A DNA stretch of 64,000 bases from Neolewinella persica DSM 23188. Lineage in GTDB: Bacteria > Bacteroidota > Bacteroidia > Chitinophagales > Saprospiraceae. A program made the translations under genes and the position numbers. Shown piece after piece: positions 2,989 through 63,124 of this stretch. The notes under the pieces are model-generated. The model had not been told where the DNA came from. It saw only the letters and a program-made list of their open reading frames with translations, and did not search any database. Where the stretch lies: positions 255,399-319,398 of the forward strand of contig NZ_KB890413.1 of the NCBI RefSeq assembly GCF_000373105.1, in the 5' to 3' direction. Positions within the stretch are counted from its first letter, which is position 1. The number at the start of each line of letters is the position of its first letter.

Positions 2989-3006
2989 GGCGCGGACGCA
3001 GGTGCA
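2989..3006 (-). repeat. 18-base dispersed motif, perfect copy (N=A)
   Basis: Plus strand reads GGCGCGGACGCAGGTGCA. It lies between a hairpin element and the inverted repeat at 3014-3185; no gene starts downstream in its reading direction, unlike most upstream copies. Confidence 0.9.
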
Positions 3007-3013
3007 GGGATTG

Positions 3014-3185
3014 TTTTAGTCTAGTAACGCGAATCAAGAGCTAAAGTGAGTCTCTTTACTTTACAACTAGCCTGAGACTCAGCAAATAATTGAGTGAGAG
3101 AATAATTGACCATTTGATTGCTGGCGCGACTGTTTCATCAGATAGGTACTTGTTTTAGCGCTTGATTCGCGTCATCAGTCTAAAC
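3014..3185. repeat. Long inverted repeat downstream of rnpB
   Basis: Left arm about 3014-3050 and right arm about 3149-3185 are inverted copies with a few mismatches; the shared core is ACGCGAATCAAG followed by GCTAAA. The enclosed 100 bases contain GAGTCTC/GAGACTC and words (AATAATTGAGTGAGAGAATAA) like the arms of the hairpin element at 35228. Confidence 0.65.
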
Positions 3186-3188
3186 GGA

Positions 3189-3222
3189 GGCGGCCCAGCC
3201 TTCTAAAGAAGACCAGGCCGCC
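3189..3222 (-). terminator. Stem-loop terminator of rnpB
   Basis: Minus-strand stem GGCGGCCTGGTCTTCT pairs with AGAAGGCTGGGCCGCC (16 pairs including G-T wobbles, 2-base loop), directly after the RNA 3' end; followed by a weak T-rich stretch. Confidence 0.7.
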
Positions 3223-3226
3223 AGAT

Positions 3227-3634
3227 GCAGACAAGGTTCCGATAAGCCGGGTTCTGTCATCTCGCACGAATGCGAGAGCTCCACCATTTATCCAGGCCCG
3301 GAATTACTTCCGGGCTCTATCTACCTACCCGTAGCGCTCTTGCGAACCGACGGACCGCCGGCTGCCGCGAACGGCAATGCTACTGCTCGGTATTTCAACC
3401 CACGGGGTTTACCCACCCGCCGCATTACTGCGACGCGTCGTGCGCTCTTACCGCACGTTTTCACCCTTACCTCCCGCCCGGAGGCGAAAGGCGGTATAGC
3501 TTTCTGTGGCACTTTCCATATCCTCCGCATTCGGAGAACCCCGGCCGTTAGCCGGCGTGGTGCCCTGCGTTGCCCGGACTTTCCTCTCGCGGTCTTCCCG
3601 AAGGAGCCGCCAGCGGTGGAGTGGACCTGCCTGC
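3227..3634 (-). ncRNA. rnpB: RNase P RNA (bacterial type A)
   Basis: Catalytic RNA that removes 5' leaders from tRNA precursors with the RnpA protein. On the minus strand the 5' half carries GAGAGGAAAGTCCGGGC and the universally conserved CAGGGCA, and the 3' half ends with ACAGAACCCGGCTTATC, the P4/P2 signature of bacterial RNase P RNA. Ends were set from helix P1: GCAGGCAGGT (3634 downward) pairs with ACCTTGTCTGC near 3227. Length about 408 nt fits the family. Open reading frames across 3270-3678 are artefacts of this RNA. Confidence 0.95.
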
Positions 3635-3743
3635 GGGGGGAGAACGTTTTTTGGGAGTGGGAAGTTGACGTTTAGCAAAGCCTGAACCTTTACCCACCTT
3701 TTCGCCTTCCCCTTTGACCAATTAGCTTGCGAACAAAATCACC

Positions 3744-5258
3744 ATGCCGCCTCTCTCCCCCACCATCATCATAGGCGCCGGCGTAGCCGGCCTGGCTGCC
3801 GCCGTCCGCCTGGCCGCTGCAGGCCATCAGGTAACCGTTTTCGAAGCCAACGACGGACCTGGCGGCAAACTCAGCCAGTTCAGTCTGGGAGAGTACCGCT
3901 TCGATTTCGGGCCCAGCTTATTCACCATGCCGCAGTACGTCGACGAACTGTTTGAATTGGCGGGAGAAAAGCCCGCGGATCATTTCAACTACGTCCGCCT
4001 CCCGGAGGTATGTCATTACTGGTGGCCCGACGGGACACGCTTCACCGCGCCGGGAGATACGGATGCGCTGGCCGACGCTGCGGCCGAAACCTTCGGCGTT
4101 CCGCGCCAAGACGTTGCCGGGTTCATGGCAGACGCTGCCCGAAAGTATGAGCTGACCGGCCGGACCTTTCTCGAAAAATCGCTCCACAAACCAGGAACCT
4201 GGCTAGACTGGCAGGTCGCCGGCGCGATGCTCCGCATCCCTACCCTTGACCTGTTTACCAATATGAACAGGGTACATGAACGGGACCTGAAGCACCCGAA
4301 ACTGGTGCAGCTTTTCAACCGTTTTGCCACCTACAACGGTTCCAATCCTTATAAAGCACCGGGGCTCCTCAGTATGATCCCGCACTTCGAGCACCATTTC
4401 GGTGCCTACCTGCCTGCCGGGGGAATGTTTGACATCAGCCAGTCCATTTATGAGTTGGGTAAACGCTTGGGGGTGACCTATCACTTCAACCAGCGGGTAG
4501 AGGAGATTGTAAGAGCAGAAGGAAAAGTAAAGGGGGTGAAAGTGAATGGCGATCAATTCCATCCGGCGGAGACCGTCGTCTGCAACATGGACGTCTGGTT
4601 GGCCTACGATAAGCTCCTCCCCGGAGCGAAGCAACCCAAGCGTACCCTCCGCCAGCAAAAAAGCACCAGTGCCGTCATATTCTACTGGGGCGTAAAGCGG
4701 GCATTCCCCGAGCTGGGCGTCCACAACATCTTTTTCAGTGAAGATTACCGCAACGAATTTGCCCAACTGGAGGCAGGTACGCTTGGCGACGACGTGACTG
4801 TCTACGTCAACATCAGCAGTAAACTGATTAAGGAAGATGCCCCTCCGGGCCATGAAAATTGGTTCGTTATGGTCAATGCCCCAGCCGATACCGGGCAGGA
4901 TTGGGAGACAATGATCCCAAAGCTTCGTGCCAGGGTACTTACCCTGCTCCAAAACCAACTTCTTGCTCCTGCGCCCGCGCCCAAAAATGCAGACGTACAA
5001 ACGCAGCCACTACTCGCAGATTTGATTGAGGAAGAGCGCATCATCACGCCCCCGGAAATCGAACGGCTTACGGGCTCTCATCAGGGCGCGCTATACGGGA
5101 CTAGCAGCAACAATACGATGGCTGCCTTCCTCCGCCATCCGAATTTTAGCCACCGAATTGAAGGGCTGTACTTTCTCGGTGGCAGCGTTCACCCTGGTGG
5201 CGGGGTGCCACTTTGCTTGTTGTCGGCAAAGATCACTGCAGGGCTGGTGAACGGATAG
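3744..5258 (+). CDS. Carotenoid desaturase, CrtI/CrtD family
   Basis: 504 residues. FAD-binding loop IIIGAGVAGLAAA at residues 8-20 followed by FEANDGPGGK, and the C-terminal family signature GLYFLGGSVHPGGGVPLCLLSAKI near residue 475. This family introduces conjugated double bases... that is, double bonds, into phytoene-derived carotenoids at the membrane. In Bacteroidota two paralogues are common, phytoene desaturase (CrtI) and hydroxycarotenoid 3,4-desaturase (CrtD); the N-terminus (RFDFGPSLFTMP) resembles the second, but I cannot decide. No other carotenoid gene is adjacent. One copy of the 18-base motif (one mismatch) lies in codons for an Ala-Pro stretch at 4964-4981. Confidence 0.88.
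   Translation: MPPLSPTIIIGAGVAGLAAAVRLAAAGHQVTVFEANDGPGGKLSQFSLGEYRFDFGPSLFTMPQYVDELFELAGEKPADHFNYVRLPEVCHYWWPDGTRFTAPGDTDALADAAAETFGVPRQDVAGFMADAARKYELTGRTFLEKSLHKPGTWLDWQVAGAMLRIPTLDLFTNMNRVHERDLKHPKLVQLFNRFATYNGSNPYKAPGLLSMIPHFEHHFGAYLPAGGMFDISQSIYELGKRLGVTYHFNQRVEEIVRAEGKVKGVKVNGDQFHPAETVVCNMDVWLAYDKLLPGAKQPKRTLRQQKSTSAVIFYWGVKRAFPELGVHNIFFSEDYRNEFAQLEAGTLGDDVTVYVNISSKLIKEDAPPGHENWFVMVNAPADTGQDWETMIPKLRARVLTLLQNQLLAPAPAPKNADVQTQPLLADLIEEERIITPPEIERLTGSHQGALYGTSSNNTMAAFLRHPNFSHRIEGLYFLGGSVHPGGGVPLCLLSAKITAGLVNG
4964..4981 (+). repeat. 18-base dispersed motif inside carotenoid desaturase (one mismatch, N=G)
   Basis: Reads TGCTCCTGCGCCCGCGCC on plus, the reverse complement form. In frame it encodes Ala-Pro-Ala-Pro-Ala-Pro, a segment that looks like a surface loop. 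Confidence 0.7.
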
Positions 5259-5363
5259 CGATCCAGGAAAAATTTGAGACCAGCCAGGTTAATTTCCGAA
5301 CTTTCTATTTGTCGCTGCGCTATAGCAGTAACGGAGTTTACCCCGTGAAAAATTTAACCAACA

Positions 5364-6080
5364 ATGAAACTAAGCATAAATAGTATTTTTTGTCTCTTCC
5401 TAGCGCTAATTCTAACCCTGGGCTTAGGCTGTAATGCCAGTAGGTCTGCTAAAGGTGCAGTCATCGGCGGTGCTGCCGGAGGTGTAGTTGGCGGTGCCAT
5501 CGGCAAAAAAGGAGGCGATGGAACTAAAGGGGCCGTGATCGGCGGCGTACTCGGTGGTACTGCAGGTGCCATCATCGGCAAATACATGGACAAACAGGCC
5601 AAGGAACTTGAAGAAGAAGTGCCGGGTGCTAAAGTTGAAAAAGTCGAATCCGTTGACCCCGAAACTGGCGAAACCATTACGGAGAGTGTGACGGTCACCT
5701 TTGACGGCGGTGTACTCTTTGAATTCGGCAAGGCCAGTCTGACTGCTGCCAGCCGGGCCGAGCTAGATCGTATGGCCGCTGTATTCATTCGGTATCCGGA
5801 TACCGACATCCTCATTGACGGACATACGGACAGCGTAGGCAGCGAAGCGACTAACCAGGCATTGAGCGAAAAACGCGCTGCCTCAGTTGCGGACTACTTG
5901 GCCCAGGACGGCATTGCCCGCAGCCGGATGCGGACCACTGGTTACGGTAAGACCCGCCCCATTGCGACCAACGAAACGGATACTGGCCGCGCGAAAAACC
6001 GGCGCGTGGAACTATCCATCAAAGCCAACGAAAACCTTTCGAAAAAGGCTGCTGATGGTACATTGACCACGCCTGAATAA
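5364..6080 (+). CDS. OmpA-family lipoprotein with glycine-zipper domain
   Basis: 238 residues. Lipoprotein signal (LALILTLGLGC, Cys23), then a glycine-zipper region with two GAVIGG repeats (residues 32-75) that is likely membrane-inserting, and an OmpA C-terminal peptidoglycan-binding domain (residues about 118-225) with DGHTDSVGSEATNQALSEKR and NRRVELSI. It probably ties the outer membrane to the cell wall. A strong terminator follows at 6102. Single-gene unit. Confidence 0.92.
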   Translation: MKLSINSIFCLFLALILTLGLGCNASRSAKGAVIGGAAGGVVGGAIGKKGGDGTKGAVIGGVLGGTAGAIIGKYMDKQAKELEEEVPGAKVEKVESVDPETGETITESVTVTFDGGVLFEFGKASLTAASRAELDRMAAVFIRYPDTDILIDGHTDSVGSEATNQALSEKRAASVADYLAQDGIARSRMRTTGYGKTRPIATNETDTGRAKNRRVELSIKANENLSKKAADGTLTTPE

Positions 6081-6101
6081 GTCCACCATCAGGGCTTATT
6101 T

Positions 6102-6140
6102 AAATAGCGGTTCCGGGGTTGACTCCGGAACCGCTATTTT
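6102..6140 (+). terminator. Rho-independent terminator after the OmpA lipoprotein
   Basis: Stem AAATAGCGGTTCCGG pairs with CCGGAACCGCTATTT around a short loop and ends in a T run. The T run ends only a few bases before the next start codon at 6147, leaving that gene with almost no leader unless transcription reads through. Confidence 0.9.
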
Positions 6141-6146
6141 TATGTC

Positions 6147-6527
6147 ATGGAATCCCTAAAAACCACTTCTCACCTTCGAGCCTTCGTTCCCGCCAAGGAC
6201 TTTGCCGTCTCCCGTGCCTTTTACCAGGACCTGGGGGCCAAAGAATTGTGGGCTTCTGACGACATGGTATTACTTCAACTAGGCGATAGCCAGTTTTACC
6301 TTCAGAATGCCTACGTTAAAGCCTGGGCGGAGAATACGATGCTTTTCCTGAACGTCCCTGACCTTGAACTTTGTTGGCAGGAGTTACAAGCGCTGGACCT
6401 GGTCAATCGCTATTCCGGTATCCGCTGGAAGCAGCCAACGGACTACGACTGGGGATTACGGGAGATCCACCTGATTGATCCCGCAGGGGTTTTGTGGCAT
6501 TTTGCCCACGCTATAAATAAGGAGTAA
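6147..6527 (+). CDS. VOC (glyoxalase/bleomycin-resistance fold) protein
   Basis: 126 residues, one VOC domain: N-terminal beta strand LRAFVPAKDFAVSRAFYQDLG and C-terminal HLIDPAGVLWHFAH. VOC proteins are small metal enzymes or binding proteins; the substrate is unknown here. The nearby ATG at 6142 is in another frame and closes at once, so 6147 is the start. The gene begins right after a terminator and ends 8 bases before the convergent gatA. Confidence 0.85.
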   Translation: MESLKTTSHLRAFVPAKDFAVSRAFYQDLGAKELWASDDMVLLQLGDSQFYLQNAYVKAWAENTMLFLNVPDLELCWQELQALDLVNRYSGIRWKQPTDYDWGLREIHLIDPAGVLWHFAHAINKE

Positions 6528-6535
6528 CGGTATTG

Positions 6536-7945
6536 TTAAAGCCCTCTGACAAAGCTCAACAACTTCCCCTCCTCCCAGTGGTCCGCCATCAATTGGTAGC
6601 CTACCGGTAATCCTCCTTCCGCCTTCAAAGGGACGGCGATTGCCGGCAAACCGGCCAAATTGGCCAATACGGTGTAAATATCTGCCAGGTAGTTGGCGAC
6701 TGGGTCGTCCGTTTGTTCCCCGATGGGCCAGGGGAGGCTGGGGCTTACGGGCATCAGGATAAAGTCGTGCGCATCAAGAATGCCCTGCAGCTGATCCCGG
6801 ATGAGGCGGCGTACTTTCTGGGCCTTGCCGTAATAAGCATCGTAGTATCCACTGCTGAGGACAAATGTCCCCAAAAGGATGCGCCGCTGTACCTCAGTAC
6901 CGAAGCCTTCGGTCCGGCTCTTGGTGTAGGTTTCAACGAGGTCTGTGGCTTCGCTGCTACGGTGGCCGTAACGCATCCCATCGAACCGACTGAGGTTAGA
7001 GCTGGCTTCGGCGGTGGTGAGTACGTAGTAAGCCGGCACCACGTAGTCGAAGAAAGAGAAGGTAACGGGTACCAGGCGGTGGCCGGCGGCACGGAACCGT
7101 TCCAGCGTGGCTTGCATTGCATTGCGGATTTCCGGTGCAAGAGACTCACTCTCCATCAAATCTGCGAAATAGGCGATGCTTTGCGGGCCTGTTTCTACTG
7201 CCTGCTTGCTGTAGGTGGCCACTATTTTATTGGGAGCAGTGGCGTCATAGGCGTCTGCTCCGGCGCTGATCTCGAGGGCTAAAGCAATGTCGTCCGCATT
7301 GTTTGCCAGATAGCCGATCTGATCAAAGCTTGACCCGTAGGCGATTACTCCGTGGCGGCTAATGCGCCCATAGGTAGGTTTGAACCCGTAAATGCCACAA
7401 AACGATGCTGGCTGACGAACAGACCCCCCCGTGCTGGAGCCCATAGCGATAAGGCAGGTAGCGGCCTGAACCGACACTGCTGCGCCACCGGAGCTTCCTC
7501 CCGGCACCCGGGTCACATCAGCGGCATTCCGGGTGGGCCCGTAAAAACTATTTTCGTTGCCAGAGCCCATGGCGAACTCATCGCAGTTGGTCCGGCCGAT
7601 CACGATTACGCCTTCGTCCAGTAATCGCTGCAAAGCCGTAGCGGTGTACGGAGAGACAAATTCTTCCAATATCCTGGAGCCAGCGCTCACACCGTGGCCG
7701 GCGTAGCAAATAACGTCCTTGATGCTGAGGACAACCCCTGCTAATTTACCCATTTTTGCACCCTGCGTCCGCGCCTCATCCTGCCTGATAGCTTCCCGAA
7801 TTGCTTCTTCGGCATATACCTCAACGTAGATGTTCAGGTGCGCCTGCTCAGCAATAGCGTCGAGATAATTACGGACAATCGCCACTGTAGTGGTAGAGCC
7901 ATCGGCCAGTGCGGCCTGAACGGATTGGATGGAAGTGTGAACCAT
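6536..7945 (-). CDS. gatA: Asp-tRNA(Asn)/Glu-tRNA(Gln) amidotransferase subunit A
   Basis: 469 residues, normal length. Amidase-signature enzyme that releases ammonia from glutamine and passes it to GatB for making Gln-tRNA or Asn-tRNA. The Ser-Ser-Lys triad is visible: Lys76 (LSIKD), Ser151 in GGSSGG and Ser175 in STGGSVRQPA. The GTRNAAD/PGGSSGG block and SFDQIGYLANN match the GatA family rather than other amidases. gatB and gatC are not adjacent in this window. Confidence 0.95.
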   Translation of the reverse strand: MVHTSIQSVQAALADGSTTTVAIVRNYLDAIAEQAHLNIYVEVYAEEAIREAIRQDEARTQGAKMGKLAGVVLSIKDVICYAGHGVSAGSRILEEFVSPYTATALQRLLDEGVIVIGRTNCDEFAMGSGNENSFYGPTRNAADVTRVPGGSSGGAAVSVQAATCLIAMGSSTGGSVRQPASFCGIYGFKPTYGRISRHGVIAYGSSFDQIGYLANNADDIALALEISAGADAYDATAPNKIVATYSKQAVETGPQSIAYFADLMESESLAPEIRNAMQATLERFRAAGHRLVPVTFSFFDYVVPAYYVLTTAEASSNLSRFDGMRYGHRSSEATDLVETYTKSRTEGFGTEVQRRILLGTFVLSSGYYDAYYGKAQKVRRLIRDQLQGILDAHDFILMPVSPSLPWPIGEQTDDPVANYLADIYTVLANLAGLPAIAVPLKAEGGLPVGYQLMADHWEEGKLLSFVRGL

Positions 7946-8161
7946 GGGGTGAAGGTATGGCAGGCTTTGCCATAAGCGGGAAAACCCTGACCTGATTTTG
8001 GCAGGTATTCCGAATTCTTAGCGCTGACAAGCCATTTTTGCTGGATTGAGTAGCTGTGTTGCGATCCCGTAAAATCACTCACGTGCTATTAGATGTTTTT
8101 TTTGCACTTAGCCAGAAAACGTGTCAGCCATTCGCTCCTGCCTGCCGGCGGCCTCAGTCGC

Positions 8162-9103
8162 TCACCCCAGATCCATGCTAGACAACACCGCCTGCGCTGC
8201 CCAGGTACGGTTGTTAGCCTGATCCAACACCAGCGAGCGGGGGCTGTCAATTACTCCATCGGACACTACTACGTTGCGCCGAACGGGTAAGCAGTGCATA
8301 AAGTAGGCGTTGTTTGTCAGGGTCATTTTTGCCTCATCGATGATCCAGCCCGGGAGGTCTGCCGTAGCGCCGTAATCAGTATACGAAGACCAGTTTTTGG
8401 CGTAGATGAAGTCGGCACCACGAAAAGCAGTAGCCTGATCATGCACAACCGTAGCTCCAGCGGTAAACTCGGGAGCCAAATCGAAGCCCTCAGGGTTACA
8501 AATGGTAAGATCCACCTTACCCCAGGCGATCATCCACTCCGCAAAGCTATTGGCCACCGCTTGCGGCAAACGGCGCGGGTGCGGTGCCCAGGTCAGGACG
8601 ACCTTGGGGCGAGGACGATTACTTTTTTCAGAAATGGTCAGGCAATCTGCCAAACTCTGCAACGGATGGCGGGTAGCACTTTCCAAACTGACCACCGGTA
8701 CCGTAGCATATTTCACAAATGCTTTCATCACCTTATCGGCGTAGTCGCCCGCCTTATCCGTCAGGGAAGGAAAAGACCGTACGCAGAGAATATCACAGTA
8801 CTGGCTCAGTACTCCGGCTGCTTCGCGGACGTGTTCCGCCGTATCCAGGTTCATCACTGCTCCTTCTTCAAACTCGATGTTCCACCCTCCGGAAGCATCA
8901 TAGGTGATTACTTCAAATCCCAAATTAATGCCTGCTTTTTCAGTACTGATACGGGTTCGCAGGCTGGGGTTGAAGAATAGATTGATGATGGTCTTACCGT
9001 AACCGACGTCCTCCATATCCAATGGCTTTCGTTTATGCCGTTGGGCACGGTCGACGAGTTCTTCGATGGAGGGGGCGTCTTGAGCGGATAGGAATTGGCG
9101 CAT
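8162..9103 (-). CDS. argF': N-acetyl- or N-succinylornithine carbamoyltransferase (ArgF')
   Basis: 313 residues from Met at 9103 (MRQFLSAQD). An upstream in-frame ATG at 9160 would only add residues encoded by a TTGGTGCTATTGG-type repeat, so it is rejected. The carbamoyl-phosphate motif FFNPSLRTRIS and the YFMHCLPVRRN motif are present. Bacteroidota use this acylated-ornithine variant in arginine synthesis; N-succinylornithine is the substrate in Bacteroides, N-acetylornithine in xanthomonads, and I cannot tell which applies. Carbamoyl phosphate plus acylornithine gives acylcitrulline in the cytoplasm. Confidence 0.9.
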   Translation of the reverse strand: MRQFLSAQDAPSIEELVDRAQRHKRKPLDMEDVGYGKTIINLFFNPSLRTRISTEKAGINLGFEVITYDASGGWNIEFEEGAVMNLDTAEHVREAAGVLSQYCDILCVRSFPSLTDKAGDYADKVMKAFVKYATVPVVSLESATRHPLQSLADCLTISEKSNRPRPKVVLTWAPHPRRLPQAVANSFAEWMIAWGKVDLTICNPEGFDLAPEFTAGATVVHDQATAFRGADFIYAKNWSSYTDYGATADLPGWIIDEAKMTLTNNAYFMHCLPVRRNVVVSDGVIDSPRSLVLDQANNRTWAAQAVLSSMDLG

Positions 9104-9111
9104 TGTGTGGA

Positions 9112-9165
9112 GTGTTGGTGCTATTGGAGCTATTGGTCTGTTGGTGCTGTTGGTGAGCAAATTCT
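9112..9165. repeat. Single repeat arm of TATTGGTGCTGTTGG type
   Basis: Degenerate 7-9-base words (TGTTGGTGC, TATTGGAGC, TATTGGTCTG) just upstream of argF'. The same words form the arms of the hairpin at 10656-10713, but here no inverted partner is seen. Confidence 0.55.
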
Positions 9166-9176
9166 ATTCGAATTCA

Positions 9177-10625
9177 TTAATTCAGTCGCCAAAAGTAAGG
9201 GGTAAACAGGACCAGCACGGTAAATATTTCCAAGCGACCCACAATCATGACGAAGCTCAGGAAAAGTTTTACGTGAGCGGGTAGCCAGGCGAAGTTGTCG
9301 ACCGGGCCAACCCCGCCGATGCCTGGGCCGACGTTGCCGAGACTGGTGGCCATGGCGCCGATGGCCGTCATAAAGTCCAGTCCCATAGTTGCGAGGATAA
9401 TGGAACCGAAAACGAATACCAGCAAATAAAGCAGAAGGAAGTTGAAGATATGCGTGATGATTCGTCCGGGGACTACCTGATCGTTTATCCGCAGGGGAAC
9501 GATGGCGGAAGGGTGAATGATCCGCTTAAATTCGAGGTAGCTGTTTTTAAAAAACACCAGGTGGCGGATCAGTTTGATCCCGCCTGAGGTAGATCCTGCA
9601 CAAGCCCCTATTGAGAGTAAGACAAAGAAAACCAGGGTCAGATTGGTGCCCCAGCTGGTATAGTCTGCCGATACAAATCCGGTGGTGGTAATGAGGCTTA
9701 CAATTTGGAATAGGCTGTCGCGGAAAGACTGCTCCAGATCATTAGCCCCCGTGGCATAATACACCTGTATGGTGCAGAAAAGTGCCAACAACACGATCAG
9801 GCCGATGTAGGCTTTCAGTTCGTCGCTTTGCCATACCTCGGTCCATCTGCGCTTAAAACTCAGGTAGAGCACCGTATAATTTACGCCGGCAAAAAACATG
9901 AACAGAATGAGCAGGTACTGTACCGCAGGGCTGAAGGCGGCGGCGCTGGCGTTTCGGGTGCTGAAGCCTCCGGTGGCCATGGTTGTTAGGGCATGGTTGA
10001 TGGCTTCGTAGGGAGCGAGACCGAAGACCACCAATAGGAAACCAAGTAAGATCGTTAGCCCGACGTAGAGAAACCACAGCCGTTTGGCCGTTTCACTAAT
10101 GCGGGGGTGGAGTTTGTCGGAGGTCGGGCCAGGTGCCTCAGCTGCGAACAACTCAATACCGCCAATACCCAACAATGGGAAGATGGCTACCGTGAGGACG
10201 ATGATGCCCATCCCGCCAATCCACTGCGTCAGGCTGCGCCAGTAGAGCAATCCCCGCGGCTGCGCCTCAATGTCGGTTAAGACCGAAGCGCCGGTGGTCG
10301 TCATGCCAGAGACCGTCTCAAACAGGGCATCGGGCACCGACGGGATCATCCCGCTGTACAGATAGGGCAGCATTCCAGACAGCACCATCGCCAGCCAGCT
10401 CAGGGCCACGATGAGGTAACCCTCCCGTTTCCGGATGGGAATGCCTTTTGGATTCCTGACCAGGAACAAGCTTCCGCCGATCACGATGCTAGTCAGGCCG
10501 GAAAGGATTAGTGGCCGCCAGTCTTCATCATACCAGATGCTGAAGGGTACACCGGTCCACATCAATACGCCGACGATGCAGAGAAGGATACCGATGACGC
10601 GGGCTATGGGGCGGAAGTTGATCAC
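9177..10625 (-). CDS. trkH: Trk-type potassium uptake membrane subunit
   Basis: 482 residues, about ten hydrophobic segments. The four pore-loop filter sequences are all visible: MTTTGASVL, MATGGFSTR, ITTTGFVSA and TSLGNVGPG. It carries K+ (with H+ or Na+) across the inner membrane and is gated by TrkA. trkA lies upstream on the same strand, separated by about 95 bases that hold a perfect hairpin; the two form the uptake system. Confidence 0.96.
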   Translation of the reverse strand: MINFRPIARVIGILLCIVGVLMWTGVPFSIWYDEDWRPLILSGLTSIVIGGSLFLVRNPKGIPIRKREGYLIVALSWLAMVLSGMLPYLYSGMIPSVPDALFETVSGMTTTGASVLTDIEAQPRGLLYWRSLTQWIGGMGIIVLTVAIFPLLGIGGIELFAAEAPGPTSDKLHPRISETAKRLWFLYVGLTILLGFLLVVFGLAPYEAINHALTTMATGGFSTRNASAAAFSPAVQYLLILFMFFAGVNYTVLYLSFKRRWTEVWQSDELKAYIGLIVLLALFCTIQVYYATGANDLEQSFRDSLFQIVSLITTTGFVSADYTSWGTNLTLVFFVLLSIGACAGSTSGGIKLIRHLVFFKNSYLEFKRIIHPSAIVPLRINDQVVPGRIITHIFNFLLLYLLVFVFGSIILATMGLDFMTAIGAMATSLGNVGPGIGGVGPVDNFAWLPAHVKLFLSFVMIVGRLEIFTVLVLFTPYFWRLN

Positions 10626-12256: not shown

Positions 12257-12274
12257 GGCGGGGCCGCAGGTGCA
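12257..12274 (-). repeat. 18-base dispersed motif (one mismatch, N=C)
   Basis: Plus strand GGCGGGGCCGCAGGTGCA, pointing at the HD-domain gene, whose start codon is 153 bases further on. Position 5 is G, as in the copies at 40222, 57480 and 61348. Confidence 0.8.
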
Positions 12275-13647: not shown

Positions 13648-13770
13648 GAGAGAATAATTAAAGGAGTGAATGGCTACCGCAAGTACCGTTCGCGACGCTG
13701 CGCTTGCTCACCTGGGCGAACAAGCGCAGCGCAGGGAGTGGAAACGGCGGGAGCTGTTCTCTTATTCACT
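13648..13770. repeat. Intergenic hairpin element, arms of GAGTGAATG type
   Basis: Left arm GAGAGAATAATTAAAGGAG plus GAATGGCTACCGC, right arm with the inverse GTTCTCTTATTCACTC. An inner perfect 10-base stem (GCTGCGCTTG 13697-13706 with 13721-13730) is present. It lies just after the HD gene. Confidence 0.72.
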
Positions 13771-13922: not shown

Positions 13923-14564
13923 ATGCTAGCCACCAAAGTCCTTGCCTCCGGCATTACCCATCTGACCGACGCTCGTTATTTCGCAGCCTGGGAGGTGGAT
14001 TACCTCGCCTTCCCCATCGGTGAGGGCGTTGCCGAAGGCATCAGTTGGGATTACCTCAACGCCCTGCGCGAATGGGTGGAAGGGCCCACCATCGTAGCCG
14101 AACTTGGCCAGGTTGAAGATGGTGCCGCTACCGCGCAGCTGCTCCAACAACAGAACATTGGCACAGCCTTAATAACGTCCGCTGCACCTGCGGCCGCGCC
14201 CGAAAAATTGACCGAAGCGGGCATCGATGTCATCAGCCACGTCCCCGTTTCCGGCCACCAAAGCAGCGAAGACGTAGCGGAAGGCATCGCTAACCACCCT
14301 GAAGCGGCATTGGTTATTCTCGACTTTGAACAAGGCGGCATCACCTGGAATGACCTGGTGTCTGGCCACCCCTTCGGTCTGCCCGATCTTGACGCGCTCT
14401 TGCGCAGTCGCCCCTGTTTGTTGCAAATAAGCCTTGACGGAAACGACCCCATAGCGTTGAAGGACGCTCATCCCGTCTTCGGTTTTGCCGTTCGTGGCAG
14501 CAGCGAGGAAAAGGTGGGCTATAAGAGTTTTGACGACCTGGACGACTTGTTTGAGGGGTTGTAG
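13923..14564 (+). CDS. Divergent phosphoribosylanthranilate isomerase-like (TrpF-fold) protein
   Basis: 213 residues. The N-terminus KVLASGITHLTDARYFAAWEVDYLAFPIG aligns with the TrpF start (K-I-C-G-I-T...DAR...G-x-D-Y-L-G-F), and the sequence alternates strands and helices as a TIM barrel would. The catalytic Cys of the KICGI motif is replaced (KVLASGI), and I see no clear general-acid Asp, so tryptophan-pathway activity is doubtful. No other trp gene is nearby. A perfect 18-base motif at 14183-14200 encodes Ala-Ala-Pro-Ala-Ala-Ala-Pro in a loop. Likely a paralogue with another role; remote homology is inferred by eye. Confidence 0.65.
   Translation: MLATKVLASGITHLTDARYFAAWEVDYLAFPIGEGVAEGISWDYLNALREWVEGPTIVAELGQVEDGAATAQLLQQQNIGTALITSAAPAAAPEKLTEAGIDVISHVPVSGHQSSEDVAEGIANHPEAALVILDFEQGGITWNDLVSGHPFGLPDLDALLRSRPCLLQISLDGNDPIALKDAHPVFGFAVRGSSEEKVGYKSFDDLDDLFEGL
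14183..14200 (+). repeat. 18-base dispersed motif inside the TrpF-like gene, perfect (N=C)
   Basis: Plus strand TGCACCTGCGGCCGCGCC; in frame gives Ala-Pro-Ala-Ala-Ala-Pro. Confidence 0.85.
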
Positions 14565-15103: not shown

Positions 15104-15120
15104 TGGTCGTTTATCTGGGA

Positions 15121-15280
15121 ACAGGATTCTGTAATCAGTGTTTAGTAATCAGGTTACAGGTATCAGGGTTCAGGCTCGGAATTCAGGAGCAAGGGTTCAG
15201 GGCTTAAAAGCTATCCGTTCTGGATAATGAGCACTTAAACCTGAATGCTGAATCCTTCAACCTGATGCTTCAAGACTCAT
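15121..15280. repeat. Intergenic hairpin element, arms of ATCAGGTTTCAGG type
   Basis: Left half repeats AATCAGG, TATCAGGG, TTCAGG words; right half has the inverse CCTGAATGCTGAATCC and CAACCTGATGC. Pairing is imperfect. The 18-base motif follows after 2 bases. Confidence 0.65.
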
Positions 15281-15282
15281 TG

Positions 15283-15300
15283 GGCGCGGACGCAGGTGCA
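15283..15300 (-). repeat. 18-base dispersed motif, perfect (N=A)
   Basis: Plus strand GGCGCGGACGCAGGTGCA, 82 bases upstream of the VOC start codon and pointing toward it. Confidence 0.9.
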
Positions 15301-15873: not shown

Positions 15874-16257
15874 ATGGAATCCAAAAGACAACGGCAGGTA
15901 GCCGAAATGATAAAGCGTAATTTTAGCATCGTCCTGCAGCAGGAAGGTTCTTATATCTACGGCGCCCAGCCATTAGTTACCGTCACGGAGGTGCACCCTA
16001 CCCCTGATCTTAGCCAATGCAAAATCTACGTCAGTATTTGGAATACCGACGATAAGCAGGCAGTCCTCATGCAGATGAATCAAGACCATCAGCGATTAAA
16101 GGCCGCCCTGGCGTACCGCGTTCGACGGCACATCCGCCGCATCCCCGACATTTCTTTTTTCATCGACGAAACGCTCGACGAAATGACCCGCGTAGAGACG
16201 ATGTTTGACCGGCTGTACGAGGATAAACAGATGCCTGATAGTGAGGAAGAGGGGTAG
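15874..16257 (+). CDS. rbfA: Ribosome-binding factor A
   Basis: 127 residues. KH-like fold protein that assists maturation of 16S rRNA 5' end on the 30S subunit. Seen: ESKRQRQVAEMIKRNFSIVLQQEG at the N-terminus, VTVTEVHPTPDLSQCKIYVSIW in the middle and LRHIRRIPDISFFIDETLDE-type C-terminal segment, all typical. It is not next to infB here (which lies at 40.4 kb). Followed by a hairpin element. Confidence 0.94.
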   Translation: MESKRQRQVAEMIKRNFSIVLQQEGSYIYGAQPLVTVTEVHPTPDLSQCKIYVSIWNTDDKQAVLMQMNQDHQRLKAALAYRVRRHIRRIPDISFFIDETLDEMTRVETMFDRLYEDKQMPDSEEEG

Positions 16258-16452
16258 TGTTCAGGAGTCAGTATTCAGGAATCAGCGGTCAGTATTCAGT
16301 ACTTAGGTTTCAGCCGTCAGTATTCAGGTGCCGGGGTTCAGTACCCGACATTTGTTTATTTTTAGAACTGTTCCATTCTTGGTTGCTGAATACTACAACC
16401 TAAGTCCTGATGTCTGCATCCTGAGAACTGATTATTAAAAACTGAATCCTAT
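16257..16452. repeat. Intergenic hairpin element, arms of AGTATTCAGG type
   Basis: Left half has TCAGTATTCAGG three times and ACTTAGGTTTCAG; right half carries the inverse CTGAATACTACAACCTAAGT. Same word class as the element at 15121, but no family core is obvious. Confidence 0.65.
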
Positions 16453-17551: not shown

Positions 17552-20227
17552 ATGTTACGATCACTTTTCACTTTTCTGCTTCTCACCCTTACCCTTGGCC
17601 TCACTGCTCAGTTTAGTAACCCCATTCGTTGGGATTTCAGTTACAAGCAAGTGGAGGGCAATGAGTTTGACCTGATCGCGACCTCAAGGGCCGAGGACGG
17701 TTTTTCGATCTATAGCCAGTACACGCCAGAAGGTGGCCCGATACCCACCAGTTTTGTCTGGGAGCCAGGGGACCACTACGAGCTGGTAGGTAAAGGCAAA
17801 GAGGAGGGACACAAGAAATCCGGCATGGACGATATGTTCGGGGTGGAAGTAATCAAGTTTCTTGACGACAAGCCGGTGGTATGGACCCAACGGGTAAAAG
17901 TCAAAGACTTCAGCAAACCCATCGAAGGGTCAGTTGAATGGATGTGCTGCGACGATGAACAGTGCCTTCCGCCAACGGATGAAGTTTTCAGCTACGTGTT
18001 GCCGGCTGCCGGTCCGCCCAAAGGGGCAGTTACCCCCGGCCCCGCCAGCTCAGTAACCCAGCCACCGCCAACAACGCCCTCTCTGCAGGCTACCAGCACT
18101 GCTTCGACCTCCCCTGCTCCTGCCACCCCTACTTCTGCACCTGCGCCCGCGCCCAAAAAAAATGGCACTCCCGCAGCTCCTGCTCAGCCAGAACTCAGGG
18201 TTTCTTCCAACAACAACCCCGTGGCCACCTACCGGGCAGAAGGCACCCCGGCCAACGAAAACGATCCGGTCAGCTGGGTTTTCACCGTTGATCAACTCAA
18301 TGAAACGGACTATAAAGTCAGCATGACCGGCACCCTTTCTAAAGGGTGGACGATCTACAGCAAAGACGGAGACCCTACTATCGGTTTCATCCCGACTACC
18401 TTCCTGCTTGAGCCAAATGATGCCATTACCCTCCTGGGCGAATCGACCGAGGAGAGCGCTACACTGAAGCACAAATACGATAAGGCCTGGGACGCCGAGG
18501 TCGATAAAATCGATGGCGGAACCGTGGTCTACAGCCAGGTCGTCCGCATAAACGGACAGCCGGAAATTAAGGGCTACGTAGAGTACCAGACCTGCGACGA
18601 GGAAATGTGCTTCCCTCCGAAAGAAGTGCCCTTCGCCCTCAACCTCAGCGCTGACCCCGTTGCCGCCTCCATCGACGGAATTACCGGTGAAATGGGAAAA
18701 GGTCTCACAAACACCCCCGTTGTAACCACCAATGAACTAGGTATTTCCGCCAATTTCATCCCCGAGCCCGTAGGCACGTGCAGCGAAGGCGCCAGCACTA
18801 CCCAGGGCAAAAGTCTCTGGGCCATCTTCGGCCTTGGCCTTCTGGGCGGCCTCTTCGCCATGTTGATGCCCTGCATCTTTCCGATGATCCCGCTCACCGT
18901 CAGCTTTTTCACTAAGAGCGGCGGCACCCGGGGTGAAGGCATTCGTAAGGCTGGCCTCTACGGTTTTTTCATTTTCATGATCTACGTACTGCTCAGTGCG
19001 CCGTTTCACCTCCTGGAAGGACTGGACCCCAGTATTCTGAATACTATTGCCAGCAACGTTTACCTCAACATCGTTTTCTTCCTTGTCTTCATGTTCTTCG
19101 CCGGCAGCTTCTTCGGTTTCTACGAACTAACGCTGCCTGAAAGCTGGAGCAACCGCGCCAGCAGAGCCGAAGGCTCTGGTGGTATTGTCGGTATTTTCTT
19201 CATGGCGCTCACCCTCGCGCTGGTCAGCTTCAGCTGTACCGGCCCGATTCTTGGCAGCCTGCTGGTTGAAACCCTCAGCGGCGGTGCCTGGCCCCTTACG
19301 GCGGGCATGGCCGGCTTCGGCGTGGCGTTGGGTCTTCCCTTCGCACTTTTTGCCGCCTTCCCCGGCTTCCTGCAAAGCATGCCCAAAAGTGGCGGCTGGC
19401 TAAACAGCGTTAAAGTAGTACTTGGCTTTGTTGAAGTTGCCCTCGCCTTCAAATTCCTCAGTACGGCCGACCTGGTCGGTGAATGGGACCTTCTCCGCAT
19501 TGAGCCCTTCCTCCTGGTATGGATTCTCTGCGCCATCGGCATTGCAGCCTACTTATTTGGCTTCATCAGCTTCCCCCTCGACAGTAAAAAACGCAAAAGA
19601 AGTCCCATTGGTGTAGTAATTGCGGTAGCCGCCGTGGTCTTCACCGGCTACCTCGCAATGGGCCTCACAGCAGACGGTGACACCGGCACCTACCGTGGCC
19701 GTAACGTCCTCAGCGGTATTGCTCCGCCCGTATGCTACAACTACTTTCTGCCCTGTGATGAGAACCTGAACATTACGCCGTTCAAGAGCCTCGAAGAAGG
19801 CCTTGCATACGCCCGTAAGGTCAACAAGCCCGTGATGCTGGATTTCACCGGTTATTCCTGCGTCAACTGCCGCAAAATGGAAGAACACGTCTGGACCGTC
19901 GATAATGTAAAACGCTACCTGACCGACGAGTATGTCATCGTTAGCCTCTACGTGGATGACCGGACGGAACTCCCCAAGGCTCAACAGCGCGAAGTAGACC
20001 GGATGGACGGCACCGGCCGGACCCGCCTGATCGACAATGTTGGCAAAAAGTGGCAGTACCTGCAGCAAACCATCTACGCCAAGTCTTCTCAACCTTACTA
20101 TGTGCTTGTTAGCCCCGATGGCACTACCCTCAACCCCCCAGTGGCCTATACCCCGGATGCGGAGACTTATGAAAATTTCCTGGCTTGTGGGTTGAGTACT
20201 TTCCGGGCGCTTAGCGCGAGTAAGTAG
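17552..20227 (+). CDS. dsbD: Thiol:disulfide interchange protein, DsbD-like, with two periplasmic alpha domains
   Basis: 891 residues. Signal peptide 1-20; first DsbD-alpha domain to about 155 with the paired cysteines of CCDDEQCLPP; a Pro/Thr/Ala linker; second alpha domain about 225-375 with CDEEMCFPP; a CcdA-like membrane core about 425-690 with LMPCIFPMIPL and FSCTGPILG, the two redox cysteines; and a C-terminal thioredoxin domain with SCVNCRKME. It passes electrons from cytoplasmic thioredoxin to periplasmic disulfides. Standard DsbD has one alpha domain, so the duplicate is notable. The linker holds a perfect 18-base motif at 18136. Confidence 0.94.
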   Translation: MLRSLFTFLLLTLTLGLTAQFSNPIRWDFSYKQVEGNEFDLIATSRAEDGFSIYSQYTPEGGPIPTSFVWEPGDHYELVGKGKEEGHKKSGMDDMFGVEVIKFLDDKPVVWTQRVKVKDFSKPIEGSVEWMCCDDEQCLPPTDEVFSYVLPAAGPPKGAVTPGPASSVTQPPPTTPSLQATSTASTSPAPATPTSAPAPAPKKNGTPAAPAQPELRVSSNNNPVATYRAEGTPANENDPVSWVFTVDQLNETDYKVSMTGTLSKGWTIYSKDGDPTIGFIPTTFLLEPNDAITLLGESTEESATLKHKYDKAWDAEVDKIDGGTVVYSQVVRINGQPEIKGYVEYQTCDEEMCFPPKEVPFALNLSADPVAASIDGITGEMGKGLTNTPVVTTNELGISANFIPEPVGTCSEGASTTQGKSLWAIFGLGLLGGLFAMLMPCIFPMIPLTVSFFTKSGGTRGEGIRKAGLYGFFIFMIYVLLSAPFHLLEGLDPSILNTIASNVYLNIVFFLVFMFFAGSFFGFYELTLPESWSNRASRAEGSGGIVGIFFMALTLALVSFSCTGPILGSLLVETLSGGAWPLTAGMAGFGVALGLPFALFAAFPGFLQSMPKSGGWLNSVKVVLGFVEVALAFKFLSTADLVGEWDLLRIEPFLLVWILCAIGIAAYLFGFISFPLDSKKRKRSPIGVVIAVAAVVFTGYLAMGLTADGDTGTYRGRNVLSGIAPPVCYNYFLPCDENLNITPFKSLEEGLAYARKVNKPVMLDFTGYSCVNCRKMEEHVWTVDNVKRYLTDEYVIVSLYVDDRTELPKAQQREVDRMDGTGRTRLIDNVGKKWQYLQQTIYAKSSQPYYVLVSPDGTTLNPPVAYTPDAETYENFLACGLSTFRALSASK
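18136..18153 (+). repeat. 18-base dispersed motif in the DsbD linker, perfect (N=G)
   Basis: Plus strand TGCACCTGCGCCCGCGCC; encodes Ala-Pro-Ala-Pro-Ala-Pro followed by Lys in the flexible linker between the two alpha domains. Confidence 0.85.
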
Positions 20228-36143: not shown

Positions 36144-36157
36144 CATAGTGATTGTTG

Positions 36158-54135: not shown

Positions 54136-54513
54136 TTACGGCCGAATTGCTCATTAAGGTTTGTCCAACAGCCCACTTTTAGTCCTAATCTGGCGGGTTT
54201 TAACGGTTTCCCTCATCTTATTTACCCTTCTTATTGCACCTGCGGCCGCGCCCCCAAAGTGAATGTAAGCATACTTGGATGCGTGAGTTGCTACCGATGG
54301 TTAAGCGAATATCAAGGAAAGCAAGGCTACCTTTTCCCAAAGCGATTACCGCCTGTGGGTTGAGGAAACTAAGGATCGTCGCATGGGTATAGGAGCAAGG
54401 CAGTTAAAAAACCTGCAAATCAACCAGCAGCCTGAATAGTGGGCTCAAATTCTGGCATACTGCGTTCTTCGGCGGCAACCGGTTAGTTTAGCGCTTGATG
54501 TACGTTTGAGCAT
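54136..54513. other. 378-base intergenic region
   Basis: Holds one perfect 18-base motif (54235) and no hairpin element. I see no gene or RNA here; the right half (54300-54500) has no clear repeats. Confidence 0.55.
54235..54252 (+). repeat. 18-base dispersed motif, perfect (N=C)
   Basis: In the direction of the coiled-coil gene it reads GGCGCGGCCGCAGGTGCA, 135 bases ahead of its start codon. Confidence 0.88.
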
Positions 54514-57479: not shown

Positions 57480-57497
57480 GGCGGGGCCGCAGGTGCA
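57480..57497 (-). repeat. 18-base dispersed motif (one mismatch, N=C)
   Basis: Plus strand GGCGGGGCCGCAGGTGCA, then AAATATGTTAAAAGAAG; 61 bases ahead of the PadR start, same direction. Confidence 0.82.
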
Positions 57498-61347: not shown

Positions 61348-61365
61348 GGCGGGGCCGCAGGTGCA
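61348..61365 (-). repeat. 18-base dispersed motif (one mismatch, N=C)
   Basis: Plus strand GGCGGGGCCGCAGGTGCA, 221 bases upstream of the sigma factor start, pointing to it. No hairpin element is next to it. Confidence 0.82.
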
Positions 61366-61433
61366 AGCAAAAGACGCTGAAGCTGGGATTGATTGGTTGG
61401 AGCTGGACGCGAGGAAAGATGAAGCTGTAGTAA

Positions 61434-61500
61434 ATATGTAGAAGTACGACAGACCCGCAAAACAGGGTAGATCATCGTAGATATGTAGAAGTACGACAGA
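61434..61500. repeat. Perfect 20-base direct repeat upstream of an ECF sigma gene
   Basis: ATATGTAGAAGTACGACAGA at 61434-61453 and again at 61481-61500, start-to-start 47 bases; GTAG precedes both. Ends 86 bases before the sigma start. Spacing is not a whole number of helical turns times a small integer by much (about 4.5 turns). Could be a double regulator site or a small duplication. Confidence 0.8.
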
Positions 61501-61586
61501 GCTCTCCGCAACCCACAACATTTTTTTCCGTCCTTCTTGTAACAAACTACTCTTAGCCGCCGTGTCTTAGGCAAACGCACCCAATT

Positions 61587-62090
61587 TTGGATCAGTACTC
61601 CAGTATAATAACTTCCGTCCGTGACCGCCTTTACCGGCTGGCACTGCGCGTCGTCAATGACGCGGACGAGGCGGAAGATGTGGTACAGGATGTGCTGGTA
61701 AAGAGTTGGAAAAAGCGTGACCAGATCGTTGGTCTTGACAACCCACCAGCCTGGCTGATGCGGATGACCAAGCACCAGGCGATCGACCGGCTTCGTTCTG
61801 CAAAAGTGCGGTGTGCCAGAGAAACGGAAGCGGCCGCTCCGGATTTCGTTGCACACACACCTTTTCAGATTACAGCCACCAACGACACCCTCGGCCATAT
61901 CCACCGGCTCCTCCAGCAGCTTCCGCCAGATCAGCGGTCGGTGCTCCACCTGCGCGAGGTGGAAGGGATGGACTATAAAGAAATAGCCGAGGCCACTGGC
62001 CTTAGTTTGTCGCAGGTAAAAACCTACCTGCACCGCGGCCGCGGTAAACTCAGGGGCCTGTTACTTCAACAAAGAATCGTAGAATCATGA
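61587..62090 (+). CDS. ECF-type RNA polymerase sigma factor
   Basis: 167 residues, TTG start at 61587 (Met-Asp-Gln-Tyr). Region 2 (RLYRLALRVVNDADEAEDVVQDVLVKSWKKRDQIVGLDNPPAWLMRMTKHQAIDRLRS) and region 4 (LLQQLPPDQRSVLHLREVEGMDYKEIAEATGLSLSQVKTYLHRGRGKLRGLL) are clear. It overlaps the anti-sigma gene by 4 bases and heads an operon with two DUF4252 genes. Confidence 0.93.
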   Translation: MDQYSSIITSVRDRLYRLALRVVNDADEAEDVVQDVLVKSWKKRDQIVGLDNPPAWLMRMTKHQAIDRLRSAKVRCARETEAAAPDFVAHTPFQITATNDTLGHIHRLLQQLPPDQRSVLHLREVEGMDYKEIAEATGLSLSQVKTYLHRGRGKLRGLLLQQRIVES

Positions 62091-62554
62091 CGCATACTAC
62101 AGCTAAAACACTGCTCGACCGCTACTTCCTCGGGGAAACCACCCTGGAGGAGGAGGAGCAACTGAGGGCTTATTTCCGGGCCGGAGACATCCACCCGGAC
62201 CTGGCTCCCTATCCTCCGCTTTTCTCTTATTGGGAACAGGCAGGTGAAATTGTTGCCCCTAAGGTGCGGCGGCCCGCAATTCAACGGCGGCTCCCCGTTC
62301 GTTGGTTGGCCGCAGTAGCGGCTGCCGTGGTCATGTTACTCTGCCTGCATACCTGGTTCAACCAGCAACCCGATCTCTCCAGCTTCCCCATCGCCGAGGC
62401 ACAGCCCATCGATTGGAGTAAGTACGAGGTCACCGACCCCGAGGAAGCCTACCGCTTACTGCGGGGCGCCCTCAAAACCGCCAGTTCCGAAATCAATCGT
62501 GGTCCTGAGATCACAATCCGGGAACTGGGGGAAGTGCGCAGGATGTTGAAATAA
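62087..62554 (+). CDS. Anti-sigma factor-like membrane protein
   Basis: 155 residues, ATG overlapping the sigma stop as ATGA. N-terminal LLDRYFLGETTLEEEEQLRAYFRAGDIHPDLAPY is the usual Bacteroidota anti-sigma start; one membrane segment about 73-90 (WLAAVAAAVVMLLCLHTW), then about 60 periplasmic residues. It should hold the preceding sigma factor inactive. No Zn ligands seen. Confidence 0.85.
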   Translation: MTHTTAKTLLDRYFLGETTLEEEEQLRAYFRAGDIHPDLAPYPPLFSYWEQAGEIVAPKVRRPAIQRRLPVRWLAAVAAAVVMLLCLHTWFNQQPDLSSFPIAEAQPIDWSKYEVTDPEEAYRLLRGALKTASSEINRGPEITIRELGEVRRMLK

Positions 62555-62617
62555 GAACTGTACCTAATCAGATTCAACATTTTACGCTTTCCACCATCAA
62601 CCTTTAAATCAACAATA

Positions 62618-63124
62618 ATGAAATATCTGATTGCCCTGCTCCTTTGCCTTTACCTGGCACCTGCGTCCGCGCAAAAAATCCCCCGGGATGCTATTTCTAC
62701 TTATTTCAGTGAATACGTCGACGATCAGGATTTTACCGTCGTATACATCAGTGGTAAAATATTTCAACTCGTCAAAGACGCCAAACTTGATTTGGAAGAT
62801 ATGGACGAAAAGGAAGTCGAGGCCATTTTGAAAGTTGTCCAGGACATCCAGGGTATCCGGATCCTCCATACCGATGAAAACGTGATGGCGCACTGGAAAG
62901 CGGCTAAAAATCGAATTCCCACTGATAAGTACGAGTTGCTTTTCAAAATCCGGACCAAGGACGGCGACAACGTCGAAGCCTTCATTCAGGACGAAGACGC
63001 CGTCATCAGTGAACTGTTCATGCTCATCGGCGCCGTCGATAATTTTGCCATGTTCAGCTTCGTCGGCAAAATTGACCTTACCAAAATTTCTGACCTGCAA
63101 CGGGCCATTGAAGGACGGAATTAG
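62618..63124 (+). CDS. DUF4252 family exported protein
   Basis: 168 residues. Signal peptide MKYLIALLLCLYLAPASAQ, cut after Ala-Gln region; the last codons of the signal are made of an 18-base motif copy. The mature part shows the DUF4252 pattern (SKIFQLV, EEVEAILKVVQDIQGIRIL-like, LLFKIRTKDGDNVEAFIQDEDAVISELFMLIGAVDNFAMFSFVGKID). DUF4252 proteins follow ECF sigma/anti-sigma pairs in many Bacteroidota; function unknown. Second paralogue downstream. Confidence 0.9.
   Translation: MKYLIALLLCLYLAPASAQKIPRDAISTYFSEYVDDQDFTVVYISGKIFQLVKDAKLDLEDMDEKEVEAILKVVQDIQGIRILHTDENVMAHWKAAKNRIPTDKYELLFKIRTKDGDNVEAFIQDEDAVISELFMLIGAVDNFAMFSFVGKIDLTKISDLQRAIEGRN
62656..62673 (+). repeat. 18-base dispersed motif in a signal peptide (two end mismatches, N=A)
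   Basis: Plus strand GGCACCTGCGTCCGCGCA; in frame gives Ala-Pro-Ala-Ser-Ala before the Gln at the cleavage site of the DUF4252 precursor. Confidence 0.65.

Follow-up and report, generated by a model that had tools for sequence, protein, structure and literature searches.

A strand-spaced 18-bp motif with species dialects in Neolewinella, a putative self-recognition DNA uptake sequence in Bacteroidota

What is an 18-base sequence doing at intervals of a few kilobases along a bacterial chromosome, on both strands and in genes as well as between them? The question arises from a stretch of 64,000 nucleotides of Neolewinella persica DSM 23188 (NCBI RefSeq assembly GCF_000373105.1, contig NZ_KB890413.1, positions 255,399 to 319,398), hereafter the window, in which an earlier note made from the sequence alone had described 17 sites of a motif with one free base. 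Neolewinella is a genus of Lewinellaceae, Saprospirales, Bacteroidota. From its abundance, its strong consensus, its dialects and its strand-specific spacing, we consider the motif a putative self-recognition DNA uptake sequence of the kind of the uptake signal sequences (USS) and DNA uptake sequences (DUS), with a probability of about 0.55. As far as the open-licence papers in PubMed Central (PMC) go, this suggests a first candidate of that kind in Bacteroidota.

The motif is real and its frequency far exceeds chance. All nine copies reported as perfect were recovered at their positions, as were seven of the eight imperfect ones without a gap, while the eighth, at 20373, is a copy with a one-base insertion. 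All 17 sites are thus present, and an overlooked insertion copy on the minus strand (7757-7775) brings the window to at least 18. At up to three mismatches the window gave 16 matches, whereas 100 dinucleotide shuffles averaged 0.27 and never exceeded 2, and no Rfam family except tRNA and RNase P reached its gathering score there. Across the 7.08 Mb of the N. persica genome, at up to two mismatches, we counted 1744 copies, divided equally between the strands (869 forward, 875 reverse), against 2 and 1 for the reversed motif; a count near random expectation outside the window, which would have spoken against the motif, was therefore not what we saw. The density proposed from the window, about one copy per 3.8 kb, also holds, with 224 copies in 860 kb. 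With genes called by a heuristic caller (coding fraction about 0.82), 139 of these copies are intergenic, 81 are genic and 4 lie at gene edges. USS and DUS likewise number hundreds to thousands of dispersed copies on both strands, within and between genes.

A second property shared with USS and DUS is the strength of the consensus, in that perfect copies outnumber those with a single mismatch. Over a core of 14 positions we found 167 perfect copies, 61 with one mismatch and 26 with two, whereas one simulated order-3 Markov sequence gave 0, 2 and 4 at the same positions. Over all 17 positions taken as fixed, the counts were 73, 100 and 51; perfect copies are not in the majority there because three of those positions vary. 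Indeed, among copies with up to two mismatches in 859 kb of the genome, position 5 is C in 0.70 and G in 0.24 of cases and position 12 is A in 0.82. The free base does take all four values at position 8, but with a bias (C 0.54, A 0.28, T 0.11, G 0.07). The form with one inserted base recurs as well, with 16 copies in 860 kb as against the 167 of the plain 14-position core.

The 18 bases are the core of a composite of about 45 bp, made up of a T-rich lead, the core itself, a purine tail and a second box, RGCAR. In the profile, also drawn from 859 kb, the lead is T-rich at -6 to -3 and has G at -1; 3' of the core, RRGRAAGG reaches to about +25 and is followed by TT and then by purines as far as about +40. 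The looser tail first noticed behind intergenic copies is thus confirmed, and it is not restricted to them, since genic copies have a similar flank profile. The RGCAR box starts between +28 and +45 in 154 of the 224 copies, compared with 11% of random places, and in 144 copies its start falls at +31 to +36. This variable distance suggests that the box may be a second contact module beside the core.

The motif is characteristic of the genus. Of the 21 genus genomes, 18 have it as a common sequence (173 to 1744 copies) and the other three have 60, 10 and 10 copies, and 243 sampled genomes of other genera held 0 to 16 copies each. In an exact scan of named genomes, the matches listed, at least 80 in number, came mostly from Neolewinella, Lewinella, Saprospiraceae and one Bacteroidia bin, and those listed also included single matches in unrelated genomes. 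Genomes nearly without the main motif, such as G012 and G010, have versions of their own, which shows that species have dialects. The G012 dialect is GGCGgCGGaGCGCAGGtA, whose word CGGAGCGCAGG occurs 23 times in 200 kb against 0.72 expected; that of G010, the most divergent genome of the genus (70% in HisS, 74% in MtaB), is ttttggctaaCAAAGTAGCAatG, with 51 to 53 sites in 160 kb. Counting the further variants in G020, G014, G003, G011, G013 and G019, dialects were recovered in eight of the nine relatives tried, as is typical of USS and DUS, which are common to relatives or occur in them as dialects. One seed from G003, CGGACGAGCCT, belonged to a different repeat and was excluded from the set. 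Inspected by eye, the site in MtaB carries the own dialect of G014, G003 and G011, whose MtaB loci lie outside the DNA from which the dialects were derived; G013 and G019 match theirs partially, G012 and G020 mismatch theirs, and G010 has no site. Beyond the genus, 80 kb from each of five other genera revealed tandem gene repeats or weak words and no comparable dispersed motif, whereas 80 kb of N. persica or of G010, used as positive controls, disclosed the motif clearly. Counts of the G010 dialect in 298 sampled family genomes, G010 not among them, were mostly near those of controls, the largest being 19 against 3 in each of G095 and G264.

The strongest new fact of the analysis is a rule of spacing that depends on the strand. 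In N. persica, only 13 pairs of same-strand copies lie within 3 kb of each other, compared with 89 expected from random placement and 52.8 when strands were permuted (minimum 37 in 5000 permutations). Copies on opposite strands scarcely restrict each other: from 300 bp to 3 kb about 38.5 pairs of either kind were expected, and we counted 35 that converge and 26 that diverge. At close range the arrangement is striking: neighbours within 300 bp comprise 27 convergent pairs, 4 divergent and no tandem ones, while strand permutation gave 7.7 convergent pairs on average and never more than 18 (again 5000 permutations). The strand alternates between successive sites in 153 of 221 cases. The rule is not peculiar to one species. 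In eight relatives pooled, each scanned with its own dialect, about 107 same-strand pairs were expected within 3 kb and 35 were counted; at distances up to 300 bp, convergent pairs (20) outnumbered divergent (5) and same-strand ones (2). G010 by itself has 3 same-strand pairs within 3 kb where about 24 were expected; that so different a motif follows the rule is the strongest indication that the system in G010 is the same. Because the exclusion acts mainly between sites on the same strand, we infer that each site may act in a polar manner over at least about 3 kb.

Spacing of this sort could also result if the motif were the binding site of a protein that organises or segregates the chromosome, with regular intervals kept by selection on chromosome structure. 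The coefficient of variation of same-strand spacing is indeed 0.56, compared with about 0.95 for random placement, and the equal use of both strands would fit too. Yet the gaps look like a dead zone of about 3 kb, beyond which sites arrive nearly at random and gaps reach 23 kb, and such a protein would hardly be expected to leave opposite strands so free of each other, to leave its site in phage contigs (see below), or to maintain a consensus stronger than ordinary binding sites should show, by an argument set out in part of PMC1626085. We therefore regard this explanation as improbable.

How did the copies come to lie where they are? Within genes they occupy five of the six reading frames, the empty sixth being the one that would encode RGRRC. 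Of 16 antisense frame-0 copies, 11 code for the end of a signal-peptide-like stretch (CTCGRAQ, for example) at residues 11 to 21 of the predicted protein, and many other genic copies lie in Ala-Pro or Gly-Ala stretches. Two conserved genes, hisS and mtaB, each carry a copy, and 19 loci of each were found among the 21 genus genomes. The site is covered by 18 HisS and 19 MtaB rows, N. persica included, none of which has a gap there, and the codons are graded from no motif (RALKKNPDAK) through partial to near-perfect forms (RALGANAGAK). The alignments clearly point to an origin by substitution, not insertion, in these two genes. A local DNA alignment test, with its gap and substitution design following section 7 of PMC1626085 in the part consulted here, covered 19 of the 81 genic copies, those with alignable relatives. 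HisS and MtaB contributed 37 alignments, none of them gapped at the site or in control windows, and in the other genes, with one repeat-domain protein set apart, gaps at sites were in no excess. Birth by substitution, as in USS and DUS, is thus seen in HisS and MtaB, with the remaining genes at control level. A terminator role was considered and rejected, as neighbours within 300 bp are separated by 36 to 299 bp and sites show no enrichment in convergent intergenic regions, which hold 16 in 23.0 kb (compared with 72 in 91.7 kb of tandem and 51 in 40.0 kb of divergent regions).

The same data bear on the other proposal of the earlier note, a very small mobile, replicating or templated sequence, such as a repetitive extragenic palindrome (REP) or a miniature inverted-repeat transposable element (MITE). 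In its favour one may cite the strong consensus, the 45-bp unit with a variable internal distance, the resemblance of a convergent close pair to inverted ends, and the repeat-domain protein, in which 33 of 53 alignments are gapped at the site. This protein has four copies, aligned mainly to paralogous repeats, and was counted separately. But elements that insert into empty sites should have left gaps, and where this could be tested, with that protein left aside, they did not: HisS and MtaB changed by substitution, gaps elsewhere are no more frequent than in control windows, the insides of 21 of 27 close pairs, those long enough for a comparison, lack mutual similarity at E 0.01, and the consensus differs from species to species. 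The mobile-element explanation is largely refuted and we give it very little credence.

For an uptake sequence one would look for machinery to take up DNA. ComEC is present in all 21 genus genomes and DprA in 20, the exception being a genome that is 55% complete. The type IV pilus and minor-pilin receptor machinery that goes with USS and DUS was not found as searched, that is, through PF00437. That family was detected in all 14 control genomes, but in the genus the matches, in 20 of the 21 genomes, are all partial and have E 1.3e-5 or weaker (11 genomes at or just above the cut-off); five of the frames were checked and proved to be three Clp-type AAA proteins and two members of a helicase family. 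The likeness to USS and DUS is one of behaviour, and membership of that class is not established, given the putative status of uptake and the pilus-type machinery missing from the PF00437 search. The absence of a pilus ATPase is less damaging than it seems, because competence in Riemerella, another member of the Bacteroidota, uses unfamiliar proteins: according to the parts of PMC8459023 available, Riemerella is naturally competent with machinery that its authors call unique, and a transposon screen yielded ComEC, DprA, ComF and RecA together with four proteins unlike known competence machinery. R. columbina also prefers its own DNA, as far as the excerpt of PMC7965970 goes.

A receptor of the Riemerella type was considered for the genus as a whole and rejected. 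DUF5689, which the portion of PMC8459023 at hand gives as the family of a Riemerella competence protein, is confined to G010 together with its barrel partner. There, at 2194-10601 of locus L344 (contig C115), a TonB-plug-like barrel and a protein with three DUF5689 domains adjoin MbnP- and MauG-like genes, and the set may thus serve another uptake.

We propose the following course of events. A surface receptor would bind the dialect of its own species, so that DNA with the motif preferentially enters competent cells, passes ComEC and DprA, both of which are present, and then recombines. A mutation that makes a site would be copied into more recipients, and sites would therefore accumulate through biased uptake, a molecular drive, while dialects would drift along with the receptor. 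Such a drive could account for the strong consensus, the birth of sites by substitution, their tolerance at permissive places in proteins, and the dialects; exclusion would arise where a neighbouring site already gives the benefit. As mainly same-strand neighbours interfere, processing is probably polar, with a one-sided stretch of at least about 3 kb served by each site. That convergent pairs are in excess fits a stretch lying 3' of the site, on the side of the tail, because each site would then carry its partner. The interpretation of the earlier note is partly supported: its DNA-protein site, possibly an uptake signal, fits the strong consensus, equal strands, genic and intergenic copies, substitution origin in hisS and mtaB, and dialects. 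More tentatively, and as a claim we think somewhat less probable than not, the whole could be a directional licence for self-DNA that evolved in Bacteroidota independently of USS and DUS: a species password of about 45 bp, read without a pilus, with processing in one direction over at least about 3 kb, a receptor that changes with the species, and phages that carry the password.

Several observations weigh against the uptake reading. ComEC and DprA occur also in 10 and 11 of the 14 control genomes and cannot serve as proof of competence; a search of the 21 genus genomes with PF00437 turned up no type IV pilus or type II secretion ATPase; DUF5689 occurs in only one of these genomes, and the barrel beside it, in G010, had no other match at E 1e-30; and the open-licence PMC papers yielded no uptake experiment for the genus. 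In H. influenzae, according to part of PMC1939737, the orientation of the motif has no effect on uptake, from which a polar action would differ. From 300 bp to 3 kb, N. persica has somewhat fewer divergent pairs than expected (26 against 38.5). At 300 to 500 bp the pooled relatives show the reverse arrangement, with 1 convergent and 7 divergent pairs. One relative, G006, gave no sensible motif, since the search ran away (225 and 462 'sites') and the row was dropped. As for origin by substitution, 62 of the 81 genic copies had no alignable relative, 13 other copies had 6 of 26 alignments gapped at the site, with similar figures in the control windows (6 and 5), and the gapped alignments of the repeat-domain protein compare with 12 and 5 in its controls. 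Finally, phage contigs carry the motif with host-type flanks, which is unexpected if it marks the host chromosome only.

The phage copies deserve a closer look. The exact core was found in 59 viral stretches, and in 23 of these (21 records) at least one site had host-type flanks, scoring beyond the 99th percentile for random host DNA. These counts bear on the scarcity in foreign and mobile DNA that is expected of USS and DUS. Counted with two mismatches allowed, the copies in 10 to 15 kb of L356, L360, L362, L376, L377 and others number as many as 3 to 5, mostly with such flanks, and other dialects gave one viral stretch each. Twenty proteins scanned from five of these stretches included a tape-measure protein, a large terminase accompanied by a portal-like protein and an integrase, as well as a head maturation protease and tail-fibre-like proteins. 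Same-strand spacings in phages run from 3391 to 10420 bp (n=8), although several contigs are 94-100% identical, so that the eight are not all independent. Prophages could gain sites through the drive of biased uptake, or phages could be selected to carry the password. The latter possibility somewhat favours the explanation that follows, and is one of the chief grounds for keeping the probability of the uptake reading at the value given above.

The main rival to it is an intracellular self-mark like Chi, in which the motif, in one orientation, licenses or switches off a nuclease or recombination enzyme that translocates along one strand, whether AddAB/RecBCD-like or a defence translocase; DNA without the motif would be degraded, and host and phage genomes alike would need it on each strand. 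Chi sites, too, are dispersed, oriented, spaced one per few kilobases and polar in action. A polar enzyme that is refractory for some distance after each site would produce just such an orientation-specific exclusion of about 3 kb, and the phage copies, with their tails and spacings, fit this account. But Chi sites have 5 to 8 bases and are biased to one replication strand, and the Neolewinella motif is much longer, its 18-bp core being joined by a tail and, at variable distance, by a second box. No such bias is clear here, as the sign of the local GC skew agrees for 122 of the 224 copies, a weak test. We know of no case in which Chi changed its dialect in this way within one genus. On balance this account seems unlikely, though it ranks before the other alternatives.

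Phages raise another option, a pac-like packaging site of a gene transfer agent or transducing phage, by which DNA next to a site would be packaged in one direction and transferred, so that sites spread. Polar action over about 3 kb or more would agree with it, as would the presence of the motif in phage contigs that encode a terminase and portal-like, tape-measure and integrase proteins. A gene transfer agent, however, should have conserved terminase and capsid genes in all carriers, and Terminase_6N (PF03237) occurs in one of the 21 genus genomes, in a search that did not extend to other terminase families or to capsid genes. There is thus no shared agent of that terminase family, and we hold this explanation to be rather improbable, slightly more so than the chromosome-protein site.

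How, then, does the putative uptake sequence compare with known ones? In the parts of PMC1626085 drawn on here, the USS of Pasteurellaceae (the Hin and Apl types) also have a core with 3' flanking segments and a strong consensus, lie in genes and between them, arise by substitution and differ between subclades. Their core, however, has 9 bp, compared with 18 bp in a composite of about 45 bp here, and they occur about once per kb rather than once per 4 kb or so. Unlike USS, the Neolewinella motif has a purine tail, a box at variable distance and strand-specific exclusion, and no type IV pilus ATPase was found in its bearers. Close pairs in H. influenzae lie within 14 bp in both arrangements, as an excerpt of PMC7811141 has it, whereas those in N. 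persica are tens to about 260 bp apart and mostly convergent. Even spacing of USS was noted by Karlin, as cited in the available part of PMC1939737. The DUS of Neisseriaceae, as partially presented in PMC3630211, are likewise abundant motifs of species groups with dialects, but they are unrelated in sequence, belong to a different phylum and are much shorter, with the pilus ATPase as a further difference; and unlike DUS, the Neolewinella motif has a very different dialect in one member of the genus, G010. Transformation in Riemerella shares the phylum, ComEC, DprA and otherwise unfamiliar proteins, as well as the self-preference of R. columbina, but the sections of PMC8459023 and PMC7965970 at hand establish no uptake motif (k-mers up to 10 bases, A-rich), and the surface family DUF5689 is missing from 20 of the 21 Neolewinella genomes.

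In the window itself, the motif scan located perfect cores between genes at 2989-3006 (+), 15283-15300 (+), 54235-54252 (-) and, intergenic according to the heuristic gene caller, 45486-45503 (-). Two further perfect cores lie within predicted plus-strand genes, at 14183-14200 (-) in 13923-14564 and at 18136-18153 (-) in an Ala-Pro stretch of 17552-20227. Copies with one mismatch were located between genes at 12257-12274 (+), 57480-57497 (+) and, by the same caller, 61348-61365 (+), at a gene edge at 33846-33863 (+), and within the predicted gene 3744-5258 (+) at 4964-4981 (-); a copy with two mismatches at 62656-62673 (-) codes part of a signal-peptide-like N-terminus of the predicted gene 62618-63124 (+). 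The window has two convergent close pairs, one of perfect cores at 30129-30146 (+), within the predicted gene 29858-31897 (-), and 30240-30257 (-), the other intergenic, with two mismatches at 40222-40239 (+) and a perfect core at 40318-40335 (-). The insertion-variant scan added 7757-7775 (-), with GGGTGCA, and 20373-20391 (+), with GGATGCA, the recurring variant GGCGCGGCCGCAGGATGCA.

Other repeats and RNAs accompany the motif. Inverted copies of about 100 bases at 13665-13766 and 35253-35355, 82-84% complementary, belong to a longer dispersed repeat unrelated to it; two clusters of degenerate 14-base units of the CAGTATTCAGGAAT type lie at 15108-15175 and 16255-16343; and a dispersed repeat of the GCTCCCGCAGGAGNCTGCTCACTTCGTTCGT type recurs at 21187-21217, 35592-35622, 63137-63197 and 63762-63822, one pair spanning 61 bases. 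RNase P RNA is encoded at 3225-3632 (-) and a cluster of four tRNA genes (Ile, Lys, Asp, Asn) at 35670-36144 (+). Elsewhere, the first 100 kb of contig C5 of G003 (L300-L304) has a second dispersed repeat near TCGGCGGACGAGCCTCGT, with 18 sites and not of dialect type. In the first 200 kb of contig C2 of N. persica, words of the GTTGCAGGGGTTGCAGGGG type were the most enriched; they left the top list for the first 160 kb once copies within 500 bp were merged, and thus probably form tandem arrays.

The part of a 2013 paper available to us (PMC3630211) calls the requirement for an uptake motif unique to Neisseriaceae and Pasteurellaceae, and in the open-licence PMC papers we found such motifs described only for these two families and none for Bacteroidota. 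If the uptake reading is true, Neolewinella would extend uptake motifs to another phylum as a separate case, one in which a single genus has many dialects. The receptor could then be found by genome comparison, and the genus would test whether biased-uptake drive explains such motifs. The strand-specific exclusion over 3 kb offers a way to study, from genomes, how polar DNA processing is and how far it reaches. The uptake reading would also predict a route to making the genus transformable, a genus on which the open-licence PMC papers yielded no transformation work.

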